DNA from: Allofranklinella schreckenbergeri
GTDB taxonomy: Bacteria > Pseudomonadota > Gammaproteobacteria > Burkholderiales > Burkholderiaceae_C
Direction of reading: 5' to 3'
NCBI RefSeq assembly: GCF_003703475.1
Contig: NZ_RDQM01000001.1
Location: 211,044-275,043, forward strand
DNA length: 64,000 bases
Below are positions 5,834 to 54,482 of the stretch, one piece after another. The translations under genes were made by a program, and so were the position numbers. The notes below the pieces were generated by a model that saw nothing but the letters and a program-made list of their open reading frames with translations, was not told the DNA's origin and did no database searches. The stretch's first letter is position 1, and every line of letters begins with the position of its first letter.

Positions 5834-6100
5834 ATGGCAAACAGTGTATTGATCAGCGTGCGCATCGATCCGGCCATCAAGCAACAAGCCAGCGAGGTGC
5901 TGGCCGGTGCGGGCCTGAGCATTTCCGACGTCATGCGCATGACCCTGACCAAGATCGCCAGCGAGCGCCGCTTCAGCTTCGAATACCAGCCCAACGCGCA
6001 AACTGCCGCCGTCATGCAGGCCGTGCGCGATGGCCAGGCCCCCATGCAGCGCGCCGCCGACATCGACGCCCTGCTGGAGCAGCTCAATGCTGCCGATTGA
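5834..6100 (+). CDS. dinJ: RelB/DinJ-family antitoxin
   Basis: Antitoxin of a type II toxin-antitoxin pair, 88 residues. The N-terminal half is the ribbon-helix-helix DNA-binding region typical of DinJ (VLISVRIDPAIKQQASEVL, then GLSISDVMRMTLTKIA), and the C-terminal half would wrap the toxin. The start ATG 5834 follows GAGGTACAAA, a modest ribosome-binding site. The sequence GCTACAATCG about 33 nt upstream could be a -10 element. The last 14 nt overlap the toxin start, which gives tight translational coupling. An orphan relative of this antitoxin lies at 11858-12160. Confidence 0.88.
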   Translation: MANSVLISVRIDPAIKQQASEVLAGAGLSISDVMRMTLTKIASERRFSFEYQPNAQTAAVMQAVRDGQAPMQRAADIDALLEQLNAAD

Positions 6101-6353
6101 CTACACGCGGGCTTTCAAACGCGACTTCAAAAAGCAGGCCACGCTCGCCCTGTCGCACCACTGGATCGAAGCGCTGTACTGCCTGTGCCAGCGCCAGCCC
6201 CTACCCGCGCGCTACCGCGACCATGCCCTGGGCGGGGATTGGCAGGGCTTTCGCGACTGTCACATCGAACCCGATTTGGTGCTGATCTACCGCCAGACCG
6301 AGCAGGCGCTGGAGCTGGTGCGCATCGGCAGCCATGCCGAATTGTTTGGCTGA
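6087..6353 (+). CDS. yafQ: YafQ-family mRNA interferase toxin
   Basis: Ribosome-dependent endoribonuclease of the RelE superfamily, 88 residues. Family motifs are visible: the basic N-terminus YTRAFKRDFKKQ, then HALGGDWQGFRDCHIEPDLV, LIYR, and the near-terminal IGSHAELFG, which holds the His that is catalytic in E. coli YafQ (H87). The start was taken as ATG 6087, which lies within the antitoxin gene and gives the normal YafQ N-terminus. All expected catalytic-type His and Asp positions appear to be present, so the toxin should be functional. It is the only apparently intact TA pair in the window. Confidence 0.88.
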   Translation: MLPIDYTRAFKRDFKKQATLALSHHWIEALYCLCQRQPLPARYRDHALGGDWQGFRDCHIEPDLVLIYRQTEQALELVRIGSHAELFG

Positions 6354-36261: not shown

Positions 36262-39096
36262 TCAGGAATTCAACCCATCCAGCATGGCTTGCGCCTTGGC
36301 CTTGAGCGGCCCATCCGCCTGGGCAATCACCTCTTGCAGCAAAGCACGCGCGCCTTCGCTATCGCCCAAACCCTGAAATTCGCGGGCCAAAGCGAGCTTG
36401 GTGGCCAGCGGATCTTCATCGGCCATCGTTTCGGGGCCCAAATCCAGCTCACCCAGGAAGCTGCGCTCGCCCTCCAGGGGATTGACCGTCTCCATCGGCC
36501 TGGACTGCGGCTCCGGCTCAATCGGCGGCAGGCTGAAATCCATATCGGACAGATCAAATTCCAGCGAACTCTTAGGCCCTTCCTCGCTGGGCGACTCGAG
36601 CTGCGACACGCTCGCGGGTACGGTAGAGGAAGTCTCCTCTTGCGCGCTTGGCAAGGTGGGGATAGCAGCGTGCGCAGCGTCTTCATGCGGCAGTCCGGCG
36701 GAAACCGACGAGGGCGCTTCGATATCGCCCAGGTTCAGATCCAGGCCCAAATCCGCCAACCCGGCCGGAGATGGTGCAGACGCGGGGCCAGTAGGCCGCT
36801 CGCCTTGCTCGGTGTCCGGGCCATCGCTCACCGGCGCGAGGGAAGATTGCTGGAAGTCGAAATCCAGGCCAGAGAGCGGCCCAAAGCCCGACAGCAGGCT
36901 GGAATCGGCCCCGGCATTGGGATCTTCCACGCCACCAGCTTCTTGCTGGGGGGTTTGGTAGAGCGGATTGGTGGGATCCAGATTGCGGCCCAACTCGGCC
37001 ACTTTGGCCCAATCGGTGCCCGTTTGCTGCGTCAGCTTGGCCAGCTCGCTGGCCTTGGCTTCAAACAGCAAACGATCTTGCCGCGAGGCATAGATCTCGG
37101 CCAAGCGCACCTTGATGGCGGCGCGCGTCGGATTGTTGATTTCCGCCTCCTTGAGCACTTCTTCAGCCTGCTGGTCGCGGCCATAGGCCAGCAGCACATC
37201 GGCTTCCAGCACCGGATCGCCCTCGCCCGTCGCATCGATCTGGCTAGGCGAATACGACATGGAAGACACGGCAGTGGACAAGCCCGACGAAGCCGACTGG
37301 GTTGAAGCGGCAGAGGAGCCGCCCTGGGTGTCGCCCCCTCTGCTGCTGGCGAAGAAGGAGTCGGGGATGTTGCTGTTTTCGTACACCACATCATCCCCGC
37401 TGCGCCCTTTGCGGTAGCGGTAGTACAGCCCCAAGCCGAGCAGCGCGAGCAAACCGCCGCCCATGTACGGCAGCCAGGGGTTGGCCAGCAAGGAATCCAG
37501 GAAGCTTTCCTCCACCACAGGGGCTGGCGCGGGCGCTGGCCTGGGCTTCTCCGCAGGCTTAGGCGGCTCTGGCGGTGGCTCGACGGGTTTGGGCGGCTCC
37601 ACTGGCTGCACAGGCTCGACGGGTGCGGGCGGCTCAGCAGGTACTGGCTCAACGGGCACGGGCGCAGGCTCGGGGATTTCGACCGCTTTGGCAGGCTCTG
37701 CCGGGAGTTTGACCTCATCCATAGGCACTGCGTCTGACGCAGCCGCGGGCGTCTCGGCGGGCGTTTCAGTAGGTGCCTGCGGCAGCGGCACGGGCGGCGG
37801 CGCTTCAATGGGCACAATGCCCGCCGACTCTTTGGCAGCGCCAGCGCCATTGCCGTTGAGTTCCTTGGCTTGCTCCAGCAGCTCCTTGGCCTTTTGGGCA
37901 TTGGTTTCGGCTTCCAGCCTGCGGGCCTCGTCCTCCTCTTTCTGGCGCTGCATGACCAATTGCTGCTCCATGCGTTTTTGCGCCTGTGAGGCTTGCTGCG
38001 ACGAAAGCTTGAGCGTATCGCCCTGCGGTGCGGCAGGTGCCGTCACAGGCGCAGTCACTCGGCCCACGGTGGTGTCGCTCTTGTGCTTTGCCGTGGGCAC
38101 GGTGGCGACGCGGGCGGCCGCACGGTTGCGGTATTGATTGAAGTCGCGCGTCTGGGCCACGATCTGGCGGCGCGCATCATGCGCGGAGACGGCCTGCACT
38201 TCGGCGAGATCGGGGATCTCCAGCGTCACACCCGAGCGCAGCAGGTTGACGTTATCGCGGATGAAGGCATGGGGGTTGGCGCGTTGCAGGGCAACCAGCA
38301 TTTGATCCAGCGATACGCCGCTGGGCAAATGGCGGCGAGCGATGGAGCTGGCGGTGTCGCCGCGCCGCGTCCTGACCGCGCCCTCTGCACCTGCTGCGGG
38401 CATGCTGCTGGCCCGCGCTTTGCCACCTGCACGGCTCGCCGCCGCACGGGATGGCTTGGGTGCGGGCGCCACCGCGCCCGAGACCGTCTGGCCCTGGCTT
38501 TGCATCCAGTTCCTGGCGCGCTGGTACACATCATCGCCTTGTACACGGGTAGAGGTGCGCGGCGCTACGACAGGCGCCATTGCGGGTGCGGGCCGCGTCG
38601 GCATGGTGGTAGCCACAGGTGCCTCTGCGGGCGTCGCCGCGGATTGCGCGCCTGCGCTGCCAGCCGCTGCACTGCGCTTGGGCGAGATGGGGGGATCCAG
38701 CAGTACAGCGTAGCTGCGCACCGCGTTGCCGCCATTCCAGGTGGCGCTAAGCACCAGGTCCACAAACGGCTCGTTCACCGGCGTGGGCGTGCTGAGCAGC
38801 AACTGCGCCGAGCCATCGGCTTTGCGCTGCAAGGTCACTTGCAGGCGGGTCATGATGCTGGAGTAGTTGGCGCCGTGGGCGTTGAAGACGTCGGGGGAGG
38901 CCGGGTTGGCCTGGAGGGTCTGCGCCTCGTCTGCCGTGAGATTGCTCACTGGAATCGTGGCGCGCAAGGGTTCGCCCAAGTGCGACTGCACACGAATTTG
39001 CCCCAACGTCAAAGCCGCCGCAGGTCCATGCAAGCCAGCGGTTAGCGCCACTGCAGCGGCCAGGGCAGAGTGTTTCCAACGATGCATGTTTGCCAT
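36262..39096 (-). CDS. fimV: FimV/HubP polar landmark protein
   Basis: A 944-residue inner-membrane protein that organises the cell pole and type IV pilus function. After a signal peptide (SALAAAVALTAGLHGPAAA), the N-terminal FimV domain is LTLGQIRVQSHLGEPLRATIPV. A LysM-like peptidoglycan-binding segment lies near residues 235-290 (VRTRRGDTASSIARRHLP). There is a coiled coil around 365-415, a long Pro/Glu-rich region, one membrane helix near 550 (PYMGGGLLALLGLGLYY), an acidic cytoplasmic part and the C-terminal FimV TPR-like end (ATKLALAREFQGLGDSEGARALLQEV). The start could also be the ATG at 39087. Confidence 0.93.
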   Translation of the reverse strand: MANMHRWKHSALAAAVALTAGLHGPAAALTLGQIRVQSHLGEPLRATIPVSNLTADEAQTLQANPASPDVFNAHGANYSSIMTRLQVTLQRKADGSAQLLLSTPTPVNEPFVDLVLSATWNGGNAVRSYAVLLDPPISPKRSAAAGSAGAQSAATPAEAPVATTMPTRPAPAMAPVVAPRTSTRVQGDDVYQRARNWMQSQGQTVSGAVAPAPKPSRAAASRAGGKARASSMPAAGAEGAVRTRRGDTASSIARRHLPSGVSLDQMLVALQRANPHAFIRDNVNLLRSGVTLEIPDLAEVQAVSAHDARRQIVAQTRDFNQYRNRAAARVATVPTAKHKSDTTVGRVTAPVTAPAAPQGDTLKLSSQQASQAQKRMEQQLVMQRQKEEDEARRLEAETNAQKAKELLEQAKELNGNGAGAAKESAGIVPIEAPPPVPLPQAPTETPAETPAAASDAVPMDEVKLPAEPAKAVEIPEPAPVPVEPVPAEPPAPVEPVQPVEPPKPVEPPPEPPKPAEKPRPAPAPAPVVEESFLDSLLANPWLPYMGGGLLALLGLGLYYRYRKGRSGDDVVYENSNIPDSFFASSRGGDTQGGSSAASTQSASSGLSTAVSSMSYSPSQIDATGEGDPVLEADVLLAYGRDQQAEEVLKEAEINNPTRAAIKVRLAEIYASRQDRLLFEAKASELAKLTQQTGTDWAKVAELGRNLDPTNPLYQTPQQEAGGVEDPNAGADSSLLSGFGPLSGLDFDFQQSSLAPVSDGPDTEQGERPTGPASAPSPAGLADLGLDLNLGDIEAPSSVSAGLPHEDAAHAAIPTLPSAQEETSSTVPASVSQLESPSEEGPKSSLEFDLSDMDFSLPPIEPEPQSRPMETVNPLEGERSFLGELDLGPETMADEDPLATKLALAREFQGLGDSEGARALLQEVIAQADGPLKAKAQAMLDGLNS

Positions 39097-49373: not shown

Positions 49374-50093
49374 TCACACCCGTTTCCAAACGGGCTGGGC
49401 TGCATCGTATTGCTCTTGCGGCACATCAAAAGGCAGGCGGGCCAGCGAAACCGCAAACTTTTTATTTGCAGTGTGAATACTCCAAATCACTTCCACCAAT
49501 GCTCGGTTATTCAACAAAGGCTCACCGCCCAAAATAAACCAATAACCGACCTCATTCACCCAAAATGGCACCATCGTCGTGCTGGGCAAAAGCATATCGA
49601 TGCCATCGTAAAACGAAATCGAGCTATTGCTATTCCAGCCACGGCGTTTTTGGCGACGCATGAACTCGAAAAACTCCACCGTAATGGCAGAGAGAATTTC
49701 CGCTTCGGACGCGTCGTAACCAGAGCGAGCCAGGCAAAAACCATCGTCCGATGCCAGGGCCGCCATGCGGGTACTGGATAAACCCGCAATGGCATGGGGC
49801 AAATAATGATCCAGGCGCGCATCCGGCGCCTGAAGTTCGCGCTCGACCTCATGCACCCACCCCTCTTGCATTGCCTGGGTTAATACAGCTTCATGCTCAG
49901 GCGCTTGTGCCAACCACACACTGCGCCGCAGCGCTGTAGAGGCAGGCAAAAGGGTTTGCAAGACGGTGGCGGTTTGATTGGGCGTGCGCTCAGCATGGGC
50001 ATACATGGCACCCGTGGGGGTAAGCATCAAAAACGGATCCTCTGCCACCGATGCGTCTGTGCCCGTACTGCATTCATTCATCTTGCTATCCAT
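49374..50093 (-). CDS. Unknown protein, possible Roadblock-like fold, last gene of GTPase operon
   Basis: A 239-residue soluble protein I cannot assign. The middle part (RMAALASDDGFCLARSGYD followed by EAEILSAITVEFFEFM) resembles the strand-helix pattern of Roadblock/LC7 domains, which would make it a second Roadblock partner of the GTPase encoded directly upstream (8-nt overlap at 50086-50093). The C-terminal part (VPFWVNEVGYWFILGGEPLLNNRALVEVIW) is also alpha/beta. There is no signal peptide. Its role in the operon is inferred only from position. Confidence 0.6.
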   Translation of the reverse strand: MDSKMNECSTGTDASVAEDPFLMLTPTGAMYAHAERTPNQTATVLQTLLPASTALRRSVWLAQAPEHEAVLTQAMQEGWVHEVERELQAPDARLDHYLPHAIAGLSSTRMAALASDDGFCLARSGYDASEAEILSAITVEFFEFMRRQKRRGWNSNSSISFYDGIDMLLPSTTMVPFWVNEVGYWFILGGEPLLNNRALVEVIWSIHTANKKFAVSLARLPFDVPQEQYDAAQPVWKRV

Positions 50094-50631
50094 TTGAACC
50101 GTTGAAAGGGTCGATGCTGAATATCAACGATTTCACCAAAGCCGCCATGTGAGGACGGCTGCGCGCGTCGATATCCATCACGGTGGGTGGCAGCCCCATT
50201 TCACCCAAAGCCTTGGACAGCTCCAGGCGCGGTTGCGGGCCACTGACATCGGTATGGGTAACCCCTACGACCAAGGCTGTTTGGTCAATGAATTCACGAA
50301 ACTCATCCACATACAACCGCAAATCGGCCACAGGGTCTTTCGCACTGCCATTGAGCATCAACACCATGCCCAAGGCATTTTCAGTGAGAATTTCCCACAT
50401 GAAATCAAAACGCTTTTGCCCCGGCGTCCCATAAAGCCGCACCTGGTCGCCACTGGCCAATTTCATCAAACCATAATCCATGGCCACGGTCGTCGTCTGC
50501 TTGAGCAAACGGATTTCATCCGAAGCGTTCGCTTCCGTGCTAACGACTTCAATATCGGAAAGCGTCCGAATAGCTGTGGTTTTACCCGCTCCCACGGGGC
50601 CAGCAAATACAATTTTGTAGGTATTAGGCAT
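50086..50631 (-). CDS. MglA/CvnD-like small GTPase
   Basis: A 181-residue Ras-like GTPase of the bacterial MglA/conservon type. The P-loop is GPVGAGKTT (residues 11-19), switch I Thr residues are around 46-48, and the G3 motif is LYGTPGQKRFDFMW (TPGQ at 69-72 in place of DxxG). The G4 site reads GVTHTD (125-128) rather than NKxD, a known deviation in this group. Such GTPases work with Roadblock proteins, one of which is encoded in this operon (54120-54482). It probably acts as a polarity or signalling switch in the cytoplasm. Confidence 0.85.
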   Translation of the reverse strand: MPNTYKIVFAGPVGAGKTTAIRTLSDIEVVSTEANASDEIRLLKQTTTVAMDYGLMKLASGDQVRLYGTPGQKRFDFMWEILTENALGMVLMLNGSAKDPVADLRLYVDEFREFIDQTALVVGVTHTDVSGPQPRLELSKALGEMGLPPTVMDIDARSRPHMAALVKSLIFSIDPFNGSNG

Positions 50632-50717
50632 AGTTCAATGAAACCATCAATGCGCTGTAGCGTACCAGCGAGACAATCACCCTCAAAAAAATTGATAATC
50701 AGACCGTATCACTGCAA

Positions 50718-52235
50718 TTAAAACAATTTATCCAGCAGCGATTTGAAAAATCCACGGCGAACGGCGACTTTTTCGCGTCCGCTCACGGAAACAGGCTGTT
50801 GGGGGGCAGATGGCTGCGCTGGCATAGGAACCACTGCCGCAAGCCCGGAAATGACAGACAAAACGATAAAGCGCAAAACGTCTTGCTCGTTTTTCGGAAA
50901 TGCGCGCACCAAATCCTCAATGGATTGCGGCATGCGCGCGCAAATGGCAGCCAGTTGCACATCCAAAGGCCCCACTTGTTCGATTTGCGAAAAGTTGGGG
51001 AACCGCCGCAATTGGAAAGAAAGGTTTTCTTTGGCCTGGAGCCGGACATCCAGCAAGGCGTCGCTTACCAACTCCCACACCAAAACATCCAAGGGTTTGC
51101 GGTTGCGCGCATTGCTTTTACCGAAATGTTGACGGGCCACGTCTTCTGCCACGATAGAAAGCAAAGGCTGCATTTCCATGGCCTCTAACACGCCTGGCGT
51201 TTGCACCATTTTGCGAATAGAGGAAACCGAAGACAGGGACACAATCCAGCCCGCCTGACTATCCAGCACAAAGATGGAAGGCCCCACGCGCAGCAAATAC
51301 GCTCCGCCTAATAACTTGCCAATAAAGCGCACCAAAGCCATTTGGCGCAATGCGGGGAACACAGCCTGCAAACGCTCCAGCACATCCTGATTGATCCCAC
51401 GCGCTTCAACCGACAGGCGCACAACAGGCGGAGCCACGGAAAGAGAAGCCTGAGGCTGACGTGTGGCTTCAGCCTTTTTACCCGTACCCAGCAACTCCTC
51501 TGCTCGGCTGGCAGGCGTCGCAGGTTCTGGCTTTTGGGGCACAGCGACGGCGGGCGCTGGCGCGGGCGCCGGCGTCGCAGAAGGAGGCGTTTCCTCCGCT
51601 GGCTTGCGCCCAACCATCAACAAGGCGCGGCGCCAAGCGGGCATTTTGGCCTGCTCGTCCGCTTCTTTTTGCGCTTCGGAGACTTCGGCGGGAGCGGCTG
51701 GAATGTCAGGCGCAGAAGCGCCTTTCAGAAGAGAACGCGTCAAAGATCCGGGGCCAGAATGGATCACCGCAGGGGCTGGTTCAGGTGCAGGCGCAGGCGC
51801 AGGCGGCTCGGAAGCGGTCGTAAAGGCCTCTGTCCTGATCGACTTGAGCGCATCGCGCAACCCCATACTCGTATAGGGCATAGCCAGCCAGGCCAGTTGC
51901 TGCCCCTCTTGCAGCGGCAACTTGGCCTCTTGCCAACCGCTGGTGCTGCCTCGAAACAGCAAGACGGCCGAACGGCCATCCAGAAATTCCAATAAACGCA
52001 CTTGGGTTTCAGGCGTGTGCTTTCGCATCCCCAAGCTAAACAAGTCAACAACGCAATAGCGGCAAGCCAAGGCTTGAGGCGTTTGTACAGGAGCGCTCAT
52101 CGTCAAATCGCGCTTGAGTACAACGCATTTATTGTCACGCCACGTCATGCCAATCATGATCTCGATGGCTGCCGCTTCGTGATCCGTCAGTCCTGCCAAT
52201 AAGACGTGTTTGTCATTCAGTACGTGCTTATTCAT
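50718..52235 (-). CDS. Large unknown protein of the GTPase operon, receiver-like N-terminus
   Basis: A 505-residue soluble protein. The N-terminal 140 residues look like a degenerate receiver-like alpha/beta domain (HVLLAGLTDHEAAAIEIMIG, CRYCVVDLFSLG, SAVLLFRG, MPYTSMGLRDALKSI). Residues about 145-285 form a Pro/Ala-rich linker. The C-terminal 200 residues are a second domain (RLSVEARGINQDVLERLQAVF ... VLDSQAGWIVSLSSV) ending in a basic amphipathic tail (VRRGFFKSLLDKLF), which could bind membrane. GAGGA precedes the start at 52235, which overlaps the next upstream gene by ATGA. I do not know the family. Confidence 0.65.
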   Translation of the reverse strand: MNKHVLNDKHVLLAGLTDHEAAAIEIMIGMTWRDNKCVVLKRDLTMSAPVQTPQALACRYCVVDLFSLGMRKHTPETQVRLLEFLDGRSAVLLFRGSTSGWQEAKLPLQEGQQLAWLAMPYTSMGLRDALKSIRTEAFTTASEPPAPAPAPEPAPAVIHSGPGSLTRSLLKGASAPDIPAAPAEVSEAQKEADEQAKMPAWRRALLMVGRKPAEETPPSATPAPAPAPAVAVPQKPEPATPASRAEELLGTGKKAEATRQPQASLSVAPPVVRLSVEARGINQDVLERLQAVFPALRQMALVRFIGKLLGGAYLLRVGPSIFVLDSQAGWIVSLSSVSSIRKMVQTPGVLEAMEMQPLLSIVAEDVARQHFGKSNARNRKPLDVLVWELVSDALLDVRLQAKENLSFQLRRFPNFSQIEQVGPLDVQLAAICARMPQSIEDLVRAFPKNEQDVLRFIVLSVISGLAAVVPMPAQPSAPQQPVSVSGREKVAVRRGFFKSLLDKLF

Positions 52236-52834
52236 TGGTTTATCCTCTTTTGCAAAGCTTCCATGACTTCCTCCCACTGCGGGGAAAGCGCCCTGCCGCG
52301 GCGCCCAAGTTCCTTTCTTGCGAGCATGAAAGCCAGCACATCGTTGGAACTGACACAATGGTCAAGGAAATGCATCTCCGCCTCCACATCCCCCTCCAAC
52401 AAAGCCTGTATGGCATTGGCCACAATGGTGCGAGAGTCGTCCGTACCACATAACAGCGCACGCGGCGAAACATCCAACGACGGCGTAGCCAACACACACC
52501 AACGCGTAGCCAGCTTATTGACTCTGGGCAGCGGCTCACCGCTGCTGACCTGCGCCAGCATGGCCCCTAAAACCAAAGGAGACAAGCGCTCCTGCACTTT
52601 GCGTTGCAAGAACACTTTCGACAATGCCGAATCAGACGCACATCCCACCAGCATATCGACCAGTGCGCCTTGCAGCGGCTCCACGCCATCCAACGCCAAT
52701 GCCTGCTTGACCCGATCCTCGTGAGCTAAGCGATCCGCCGGTTTTTGCAATACCAGGCGACTGGCCCGTCGAAAGAACAACCGCGCCGCCACTGCGGCTG
52801 GCAGCGGCGGCGTATGGATAGTTTGTTGGGTCAT
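52232..52834 (-). CDS. Unknown helical protein of the GTPase operon
   Basis: A 200-residue, probably all-helical cytoplasmic protein with no motif I recognise. It has a Leu/Ala-rich central part (PLQGALVDMLVGCASDSALSK) and a charged C-terminus. It is translationally coupled to the 505-residue protein (overlap of 4 nt) and lies 30 nt after the PhnD-like gene. An adaptor or effector role is possible but unsupported. Confidence 0.6.
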   Translation of the reverse strand: MTQQTIHTPPLPAAVAARLFFRRASRLVLQKPADRLAHEDRVKQALALDGVEPLQGALVDMLVGCASDSALSKVFLQRKVQERLSPLVLGAMLAQVSSGEPLPRVNKLATRWCVLATPSLDVSPRALLCGTDDSRTIVANAIQALLEGDVEAEMHFLDHCVSSNDVLAFMLARKELGRRGRALSPQWEEVMEALQKRINQ

Positions 52835-52864
52835 AGCCTTAGGCCGAGATCGAAATGACCTGAC

Positions 52865-53614
52865 TCAATCGAGCAAGGTTTCCATCAAATCGATCATGAA
52901 CTCGGCATCTTCAGCCGTCATGCTTTCAAAGCCGCCAGAGATGCCCAGCTCGTCCAATACGGGCTGGCCATCGGGCGTACCCGTCAAGCCCGTGAGCGCG
53001 TCCTGGATCAGCTTTTCATGCTCAATCGCCTTGGCACTCATCAAGAACACATGCACGATGTCCGTGAGCTTGCTTTCAATCAAAGGCTTGAGCTGCGTTT
53101 TTGTCAAACGCGACAGAGAGTGGTAGGCCTCCGCCAAGAAGAAGCTGGCATCGACCTCGCCCTTGATCGCCAAGCGGGCCGCAGCTTGGTAGTTCTCCAC
53201 CAGTTGCCACTGCACATCGGCTTCCGTCAAATCGGCAGGCTCAAGCAAACGCAAGCCAATGAGCTTGACATCCTTGTTATCCGTCAAAGCGATTTTGCAA
53301 CCAGGCTTGAGGTCTTCCACCACATTCAAAGCAGAGTCAGCCCCCGTTGCGATCACCATCTCATCGGATTTGCCAACCGGGCGAGCTACCGCCTGGTAGC
53401 CAGAGTCACGCACCATCGAAGCAGCGTCGAAAGGGTTGGCATAAACCATGTCCACATCACCCTTGGCAATCAGATCGGCTTGTTCAGCCGCAGATGCTGG
53501 TGTGAGCAAATGCAAATGCAGACCCGATTTCTTTTGCAGCAATGTATTGAGCATATGCCAGCCAGCAAAACGCTCTGGCGAAAAATCAGGGGCAATCAAT
53601 AGGTTCAACGTCAT
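52865..53614 (-). CDS. Cytoplasmic PhnD-like substrate-binding protein
   Basis: A 249-residue protein with the fold of phosphate/phosphite/phosphonate periplasmic binding proteins (PhnD-like: GDVDMVYANPFDAASMVRDSGYQAVARP, and later DASFFLAEAYHSLSRL). It has no signal peptide or lipobox: it begins MTLNLLIAPDFSPERFAG directly at the first beta strand, after AAGGGAG. No ABC transporter genes are nearby. It is therefore likely an intracellular ligand sensor recruited to the GTPase/Roadblock/PAS system. It begins 1 nt after the PAS gene ends. Confidence 0.78.
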   Translation of the reverse strand: MTLNLLIAPDFSPERFAGWHMLNTLLQKKSGLHLHLLTPASAAEQADLIAKGDVDMVYANPFDAASMVRDSGYQAVARPVGKSDEMVIATGADSALNVVEDLKPGCKIALTDNKDVKLIGLRLLEPADLTEADVQWQLVENYQAAARLAIKGEVDASFFLAEAYHSLSRLTKTQLKPLIESKLTDIVHVFLMSAKAIEHEKLIQDALTGLTGTPDGQPVLDELGISGGFESMTAEDAEFMIDLMETLLD

Positions 53615-53615
53615 T

Positions 53616-54107
53616 TCATGCTCCCTTTTCAGCAGCCAACCATTGTTTATACAAAGCCGTCATTTCTTCGATTTTCTTGCGCGAAGGCTTGCGACGCACA
53701 GAGGTGTAACCCACCACCTGGCCGCCGCGCTTATTGGGAACGGCTGTCGCGTAAACCCAATAATGCGAGCCGTCTTTGCGCAAGTTTTTGACGTAACCAT
53801 GCCATTTCTTGCCTGCCAGCATGGTTTCCCACAAATCCTTGAATGCGGCTTTAGGCATGTCAGGGTGGCGCAAGATGCAATGCGGCTGACCAATCAGCTC
53901 TTCACGCTCATAACCGGAAAGCTCAATAAACGCATCGTTGGCATGCGTCAAAATGCCATTGAGATCGGTGCGCGAAATAATCAAGCGCCCCTCCGGATAC
54001 GGGATTTCCCGGTCGCTGACTTTTACCGTGCGAGTCGTGCCGTCGTAAAACGTAATTTCGTGCGTATGCACCGCATCTGCTGCGGGCTGCTGAAGTGGCA
54101 TTGCCAT
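53616..54107 (-). CDS. Aer-type PAS-domain protein
   Basis: A 163-residue stand-alone PAS protein. The pattern RTDLNGILTHANDAFIELSGYEREELIGQPH, RHPDMPKAAFKDLWETMLAGKKWHGYVKNLRKDG and SHYWVYATAVP (quoted in part) matches the FAD-binding PAS of the aerotaxis receptor Aer and relatives. There is no kinase, HAMP or methyl-accepting domain, so it must signal through partners. AAGGGGGG precedes the start at 54107, 12 nt after the Roadblock gene. A redox or oxygen input to the GTPase switch is an attractive inference. Confidence 0.85.
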   Translation of the reverse strand: MAMPLQQPAADAVHTHEITFYDGTTRTVKVSDREIPYPEGRLIISRTDLNGILTHANDAFIELSGYEREELIGQPHCILRHPDMPKAAFKDLWETMLAGKKWHGYVKNLRKDGSHYWVYATAVPNKRGGQVVGYTSVRRKPSRKKIEEMTALYKQWLAAEKGA

Positions 54108-54119
54108 AGCTTGCCCCCC

Positions 54120-54482
54120 TTACACGAGCTTAGACAGCGCCTCGGCGGCACGCTTGATGTCCAAGAACAACAGACCCAATTTGGCGTTTTGCTTGGCCAA
54201 CACCGTCAGCACGGCCTCGCTGCCGGCCGAACTCATGATCACATAGCCACGCTCGCCTTGCAGCAACACGCGCTCCAGCGTGCCGCGCGCCAGCTCACGC
54301 GCTGCGCGATCACCCAGAGAGAGCAGCGCAGCCGACATGGCGCCCACGCGGTCCTCGTCCATGCCTTGGGGCAGCGCCGAGGCGATCATCAAACCGTCTG
54401 TAGAGATCAGCGCCGATGCTTCCACGTCAGCAGACGAGCCTTTAAGTTCTTCCAGCACTTGCTGGAGCATATCTGTACGCAT
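54120..54482 (-). CDS. Roadblock/LC7 (MglB/CvnB-like) protein
   Basis: A 120-residue Roadblock domain: ALISTDGLMIASALPQGMDEDRVGAMSAALLSLGDRAAREL and LLQGERGYVIMSSAG...AVLTVLAKQNAKLGLLFLDI (abbreviated) are textbook for the family. Homologues act as GTPase-activating or regulatory partners of MglA-like GTPases; here the GTPase is at 50086-50631. It is the first gene of the seven-gene operon. AAGGA precedes the start at 54482; an upstream in-frame start (54524) is less likely. Confidence 0.88.
   Translation of the reverse strand: MRTDMLQQVLEELKGSSADVEASALISTDGLMIASALPQGMDEDRVGAMSAALLSLGDRAARELARGTLERVLLQGERGYVIMSSAGSEAVLTVLAKQNAKLGLLFLDIKRAAEALSKLV

Follow-up and report, generated by a model that had tools for sequence, protein, structure and literature searches.

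A conserved operon of an MglA-family GTPase, two Roadblock proteins and exchangeable sensors in Allofranklinella schreckenbergeri and related bacteria

Introduction

Which signal could reach a bacterial Ras-like GTPase that is encoded together with two Roadblock proteins, a stand-alone PAS protein and a phosphonate-binding-like protein, and where might that signal go? The question is raised by seven genes in a 64,000-nt stretch (hereinafter the window) of the 2.82 Mb genome of Allofranklinella schreckenbergeri, which an earlier note on this DNA considered to be a possible new signalling system recalling the conservons of Streptomyces and the MglA/MglB switch of Myxococcus. As detailed below, the GTPase belongs to the Group 3 type of the MglA family; systems of this group are widespread in beta- and gammaproteobacteria, and no input for them was found in the literature consulted.

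The operon and its Group 3 core

The genes are transcribed from the minus strand (49374-54482) in the order Robl, PAS, PhnD-like, h200, p505, GTPase and p239, with intergenic spacings of 12, 1, 30, -4, 86 and -8 nt (Table 1); the arrangement of seven genes on one strand with gaps of at most 86 nt was confirmed, as was the gene content listed in the earlier note. Pfam and NCBIfam searches identified Roadblock/LC7, PAS and phosphonate-binding domains in the first three products and no family in h200 and p505; the GTPase matched P-loop GTPases without a clear family, and p239 gave a Roadblock match below the threshold.

Table 1 Genes of the operon in the window, in order of transcription
Gene	Position	Strand	Product	Supporting match or evidence
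Robl	54120..54482	-	120-aa Roadblock/LC7 protein (MglB-like), first gene	Pfam Robl_LC7 2e-18
PAS	53616..54107	-	stand-alone PAS protein of the Aer type (163 aa), putative redox sensor with FAD	Aer PAS 8dik, E 3e-38
PhnD-like	52865..53614	-	249-aa binding protein without a signal-peptide-like stretch	Pfam Phosphonate-bd 1.6e-37
h200	52232..52834	-	200-aa protein, predicted all-helical and TPR-like	no family match
p505	50718..52235	-	505-aa protein: receiver-like N-terminus, Pro-rich linker, C-terminal domain, basic tail RGFFKSLLDKLF	no Pfam match
GTPase	50086..50631	-	MglA-family small GTPase, Group 3 type	motif residues kept in 80 family members
p239	49374..50093	-	239-aa divergent second Roadblock protein with extra N-terminal domain	fold prediction

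The GTPase was assigned from motif residues counted over 80 family members, those of another cassette type included. Gly11 and Lys17 of the P-loop and Thr47-Thr48 of G2 are present in all 80 sequences, as is the Pro-Gly-Gln of G3, which reads GTPGQ in the window protein (residues 68-72; Thr69 in 71 of the 80), and both G2 and G3 are of the Group 3 form. In G5 (D155-A-R157 in the window), Asp155 and Arg157 are each retained in 78 of the 80 sequences; G4 of the window protein, THTD, lacks the usual lysine, which is found at that position in 13 of the 80. The Group 1 type exemplified by the MglA of Myxococcus could be ruled out because GTPGQ and threonine take the place of TVPGQ and the intrinsic arginine.

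Group 3 MglA systems of beta- and gammaproteobacteria, as portrayed in the main text of PMC4316618, consist of a protein predicted to have receiver-like and winged-helix ends, MglA and one or two MglB proteins, and p505 appears to match the first of these. Its receiver-like pattern includes Asp64 (78 of 103 sequences) and Pro120 (100 of 103) and is followed by the Pro-rich linker. The short, basic, amphipathic-looking C-terminal tail was recognized in 49 of 62 loci that contain the GTPase and in 1 of 24 that do not (one of the 24, L117, lies at a contig end), using a search pattern adjusted by eye, which overlooks some genuine tails. Because the p505/GTPase/Roadblock core matches the Group 3 systems reported in 2014 (PMC4316618), the kind of system is already known, and a description thus exists for this core, contrary to the earlier note, which knew of none for the set. 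For the exchange of sensors, the near-constant PhnD-like and h200 partners and the repeated loss of the GTPase, we found no description: the seven-gene set was not encountered in the literature searched, and the terms PAS, globin, phosphonate, oxygen and tetratricopeptide do not occur in the main text of PMC4316618.

Roadblock proteins are best known as regulators of GTPases. Robl retains Asp29-Gly30 in 95 of 95 relatives, in line with a Roadblock fold carrying the conserved Asp-Gly; its best structural match is 7f8m (1.8e-27), with MglB (6h5b) at 2e-4, and it is 93-97 % identical in three relatives, one from the same genus and two from other genera. For the C-terminal part of p239, a second Roadblock domain is predicted from fold matches that span residues about 91-211; hhalign comparison of p239 with Robl gave a probability of no more than 2 %, yet the two were aligned in the expected register. 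The proposal of an MglA-like GTPase accompanied by two Roadblock proteins is thus borne out by Pfam for Robl and by the predicted fold for p239.

The helical model of h200 produced weak matches (best Foldseek E 0.25), and TPR matches, themselves weak, were obtained only for homologues and longer counterparts in other loci. As noticed earlier, FimV is encoded near the operon (36262-39012, FimV_N match 3e-33, with a Pro-rich linker of its own); hhalign probability between h200 and FimV was at most 2 %. In two relatives, a bactofilin gene adjoins the h200 homologue (L030:12723-13076 and L114:1929-2279), perhaps a polar or cytoskeletal link. Elsewhere in the window (5834-6353), overlapping genes for a RelB antitoxin (3e-15) and a YafQ toxin (9e-29) form a type II toxin-antitoxin pair.

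Conservation of the gene set

A scan of the genome collection with Robl yielded 359 relatives, the best 80 of which, a sample biased to close relatives of Robl, were kept; 52 of these 80 loci were complete, with at least 5 kb upstream and at least 6 kb downstream, and were scored with refined profiles (open reading frames were scanned directly in low-GC loci, on which the gene caller fails). All seven genes are found in the order of the window in 20 of the 52 complete close loci and in the rotated order h200-p505-GTPase-p239-Robl-PAS-PhnD in nine more. The GTPase is the only missing gene in 16 loci (one with a second PAS), both p505 and the GTPase are missing from six that belong to several lineages and keep the other five genes, and a single locus retains Robl and PhnD alone. 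The PhnD-like gene is present in 52 of 52, and each of the 29 GTPase-bearing loci also encodes p505. The seven-gene set is therefore an evolutionary unit conserved in two gene orders, contrary to the lack of conservation that the earlier note had named as grounds for refuting its reading, with PhnD and h200 as near-constant partners within the close clade. The flanking genes vary: once the seven families and the longer counterparts of these are set aside, the commonest cluster, a two-component regulator judging by its sequence, occurs in 13 of 99 loci.

Strong matches to Robl (at least 129 bits, the genome of origin included) were obtained in 30 of 399 genomes of the order and 41 of 369 genomes of the class, and a phylum-wide draw gave matches at E 1e-20 in 6 of 299 genomes, one of them outside the class. 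This distribution rules out a lineage-restricted curiosity. The neighbour scan took in 114 proteins from 36 loci, 27 of an initial 141 having been discarded on visual inspection because they were short, distant or look-alikes; among the 25 families listed of 162, the di-iron protein ODP shares the highest count with MMR_HSR1 and Lactamase_B. One locus labelled Streptomyces cinereus (L092) contains a Moraxellaceae-like operon and probably comes from a mislabelled or contaminated assembly. In another (L031:6958-13522), a Group 3-like cassette of a different type occurs twice in tandem; besides a GTPase, it encodes a protein of about 225 aa, two proteins of Roadblock size and one of 119 aa, which is 74-79 % similar to copies in other loci. 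Related cassettes are present in several of the loci L033-L044.

Sensors of the operon and their replacement

The five flavin contacts of the E. coli Aer PAS domain, H53, R57, W70, N85 and R115 (PMC9668731), correspond to H76, R80, W93, N108 and R138 of the window PAS protein; in the alignment with 8dik, which has no gaps, one and the same offset accounts for all five residue types. The counterparts are retained in 70, 80, 81, 81 and 81, respectively, of 82 relatives. The match to 8dik (E 3e-38) and the conservation of these residues uphold the assignment of the protein to the Aer redox type, and we predict that it is a stand-alone redox sensor that would bind FAD. Unlike the Aer receptor, with its HAMP and MCP signalling domains, the 163-aa protein gave Pfam matches of the PAS type only. 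The PhnD-like protein does not look like an exported binding protein: a hydrophobic N-terminal 12-mer was found in only 1 of 108 copies, using a simple hydropathy test (mean Kyte-Doolittle value of at least 2.0, from the furthest in-frame start to domain residue 30).

A less biased set of 60 loci from 58 genomes, a subset of the matches from the order (25 loci) and the class (35 loci), shows that the sensor is exchangeable. In the 51 loci with at least 5.5 kb upstream and at least 2.5 kb downstream, which were scored for five sensor families, the same-strand cluster contains PAS alone in 13, ODP in 10, protoglobin alone in 5, PAS together with protoglobin in 1 and FIST in 1, and none of the five families in 21. 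PAS is accordingly replaced or joined by ODP, protoglobin or FIST, an exchange of which we found no description. The PhnD-like gene is part of the same-strand cluster in 18 of the 51 loci and missing from it in 33; the GTPase is part of it in 44, and L128 adds one on the other strand.

ODP is an oxygen-binding di-iron family, for which the best structural match is the ODP of Treponema denticola (6qrq, 5.7e-62). Nine loci have ODP as the first gene of a cluster whose last genes are p505-GTPase-p239-Robl, the two parts being separated by a protein that is TPR-like or of similar size; in L145, ODP comes immediately after Robl. The ODP loci carry five family labels in all. The protoglobins (PF11563, E down to 9e-26), whose nearest solved structure is a globin-coupled histidine kinase, are encoded either between p239 and Robl or immediately behind the latter and also carry five family labels. 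Genomes contain one to four copies of either family (10 genomes for ODP, 6 for protoglobin), and the copy in the operon is the sole family member in 5 of the 10 and 2 of the 6, respectively. Given so few copies per genome, chance adjacency appears very unlikely.

Because other oxygen-binding modules fill the PAS slot in some relatives, the input is best read as oxygen or redox state, which would be the common theme of the sensors; the FIST locus and the 21 loci without any of the five families do not fit this theme. To our knowledge, FIST is not an oxygen sensor. Nor is an oxygen or redox input known for any bacterial Ras-like switch, which would make this one new. An oxygen/redox sensor that recurs and can be exchanged offers a concrete, testable input for Group 3 MglA systems and suggests a new way of coupling bacterial oxygen sensing to surface behaviour.

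Several further arrangements were observed. In L145 (9809-11063), Robl is followed at 98 nt by ODP (PF19583, 3e-70), with no p239, p505 or related GTPase alongside and no related GTPase found anywhere in the genome, perhaps a minimal form of just two genes. An oral Ottowia with PAS in its set also encodes ODP, about 3.3 kb beyond the seven genes and on the other strand (L059:18112-18891). A protein of about 157 aa without a Pfam match is encoded between p239 and Robl in L123 (9472-9945), and a relative immediately precedes Robl in L111 (near 4277); by eye the protein resembles the V4R ligand-binding domain. A GAF histidine kinase (L170:8214-9629) and a chemoreceptor-type gene (L177:2965-4197) are each located just downstream of Robl.

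Loss of the GTPase

The GTPase, to which the earlier note had given a central place, proved to be absent from many relatives that keep the rest of the set. It was lost repeatedly, nearly always together with the C-terminal tail of p505, and Robl is under strong purifying selection whether the GTPase is present or absent. On a tree of 71 loci, 32 of them GTPase-less (L117, the contig-end case, included), presence and absence of the GTPase require 7 changes, whereas 300 shuffles needed 23.6 on average; the change at L117 is an artefact, and the GTPase-bearing L060 is nested in a GTPase-less clade. A search of 22 of the genomes with GTPase-less loci detected no related GTPase at E 1e-3 in 17, and the same search recovered the GTPase in 5 of 5 controls. 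Four genomes (G911, G921, G922 and G923) have a relative of the GTPase elsewhere, and G920 contains a 24-residue remnant that includes a stop. Five further GTPase-less genomes also gave no related GTPase (0 of 5); among these five, G735 may be a case of a missed GTPase, since relatives from the same genus have divergent copies. Median dN/dS of Robl is 0.034 for one GTPase-less clade (24 loci) and 0.047 for a clade that has the GTPase (13 loci), with dS near saturation in many of the pairs.

The existence of GTPase-free versions implies that the GTPase is dispensable for whatever keeps the other genes. These versions represent natural experiments on Roadblock proteins without a GTPase and as such bear on the archaeal and eukaryotic Roadblock proteins.

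Candidate outputs

Type IV pili are compatible with the data as an output. All 40 Robl-positive genomes and all 18 GTPase-less ones examined scored above the cut-off for the retraction ATPase PilT; because 35 of 40 genomes treated as Robl-negative did so as well (25 listed without a Robl match, ten absent from the match lists and five searched for the GTPase alone), the link to pili is weak. In single cases, a ComP-like minor pilin is encoded 661 nt after Robl (L137) and Robl is followed at about 2.8 kb by a gene of the T2SSF family (PilC-type; L157); there is no pilus family among the 25 listed of the 162 neighbour families. The flagellum as a general target is ruled out, given that 24 of 53 carriers, the window genome among them, lack FliG (one genome was counted twice). 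In a Methylomonas, the region downstream of the operon contains a gene for a class-I adenylate cyclase (L121:12325-15096).

Observations on other bacteria involve similar components. In M. xanthus, MglA stimulates pili through the TPR effector SgmX (PMC7519303); in Snodgrassella, a point mutation in a Group 3 mglB changed motility at the colony edge (PMC11112851); and the retraction speed of gonococcal pili changes on oxygen depletion, which the authors credit to proton motive force (PMC3691265).

A proposed mechanism and its alternatives

Starting from the gene set, its conservation, its protein families, the replacement of sensors and the repeated loss of the GTPase, all of which come from sequence comparison, we infer protein contacts, FAD binding, a direction of signalling and a pilus output that could be combined as follows. 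The PAS protein, with FAD, would read the redox or respiratory state and the cytoplasmic PhnD-like protein a small ligand; both would act on a Roadblock assembly of Robl with p239, which would control the Ras-like GTPase by setting its state. Together with its constant partner p505 and the helical h200, the GTPase may then act on an output at the cell surface, most likely the assembly or polarity of type IV pili. We consider it somewhat probable that the operon is such an oxygen/redox-input Group 3 MglA/Roadblock switch with type IV pilus assembly or polarity as its most likely output. A bolder version, which we put forward as a tentative conjecture, is that type IV pili are served by a system of oxygen or energy taxis without chemoreceptors, in which interchangeable oxygen/redox sensors (FAD-PAS, protoglobin and ODP) would feed a two-Roadblock hub and through it the GTPase, and the hub alone would signal where the GTPase has been lost.

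The frequency of that loss gives some weight to another possibility, namely that the scaffold of Robl and p239 alone carries the oxygen or ligand signal to some machine, with the GTPase and p505 as an optional amplifier. The absence of a related GTPase from 17 of the 22 and all five further GTPase-less genomes, the lower dN/dS of Robl in the GTPase-less clade and the Robl-ODP pair of L145, in a genome without a related GTPase, all speak for it. We nevertheless regard it as rather doubtful: 44 of the 51 less biased loci keep the GTPase on the same strand and L128 has an opposite-strand copy, Roadblock proteins being known above all for regulating GTPases; moreover, the searches covered Group 3-like GTPases, so that another GTPase could serve, and 4 of the 22 have a relative elsewhere.

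The other two explanations do without pili or motility. If p505 were a GTPase-controlled, winged-helix DNA-binding regulator, the operon would tune gene expression to redox state and a ligand; a transcription role was indeed proposed for the Group 3 protein with its receiver-like N-terminus and winged-helix-like C-terminal region (main text of PMC4316618). We find this unlikely given that the short, basic, amphipathic-looking tail of p505 is nearly always lost with the GTPase, which fits docking or a membrane role, and that p505 itself is missing from 6 of the 52 complete close loci, the six keeping the other five genes. It is more improbable still, by a wide measure, that the operon regulates the metabolism of phosphonates or related compounds, with PhnD as the key input and uptake or respiration as the controlled process. 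The PhnD-like gene accompanies all 52 complete close loci, several of the loci having extra copies, but there is no phosphonate-uptake family among the 25 listed of the 162 neighbour families, and PhnD is missing from the same-strand cluster in 33 of the 51 less biased loci.

Relation to known systems

With the Group 3 MglA/MglB systems, as presented in the main text of PMC4316618, the operon shares the G2 threonine, GTPGQ and D-A-R motifs, a G4 that in the window protein lacks the lysine, as is often so in that group, coupled MglB, the range over beta- and gammaproteobacteria and, as it appears, an adjacent receiver-like protein with a variable linker. It differs from that description in the addition of PAS, the PhnD-like protein and h200, in a highly divergent second Roadblock protein with an extra N-terminal domain, in its exchangeable sensor and in the existence of GTPase-free versions. 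The mgl operon of Snodgrassella likewise combines a Group 3 MglA with several MglB proteins and has a proposed phenotype of the type IV pilus kind; however, no redox sensor or PhnD partner is mentioned in the available part of that report, and the mutated mglB is an orphan far from mglA (PMC11112851). The Group 1 system of Myxococcus (MglA/MglB/SgmX) resembles the operon in its small GTPase and Roadblock regulator, may do so in its TPR-type partner and pilus output (PMC7519303) and is set apart by TVPGQ, the intrinsic Arg finger and partners encoded away from mglA (PMC4316618).

The conservons of Streptomyces (CvnA-D) also unite a Roadblock protein, an MglA-family GTPase and a sensor in one conserved operon. 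Among the seven genes, Pfam and NCBIfam gave no match to the CvnA histidine kinase or to CvnC, so that the likeness noted earlier does not extend to identity and the operon is not a conservon.

As regards the sensors, a stand-alone Aer-type PAS protein acts on a separate partner in the CetA/CetB energy taxis system of Campylobacter as well, but there the partner is a chemoreceptor (PMC2628428) and here it would be the Roadblock/GTPase set. Similarly, homologues of the Treponema denticola ODP (6qrq) are part of the cluster in some relatives, whereas the Treponema protein itself is coupled to a chemoreceptor homologue (PMC7666581).
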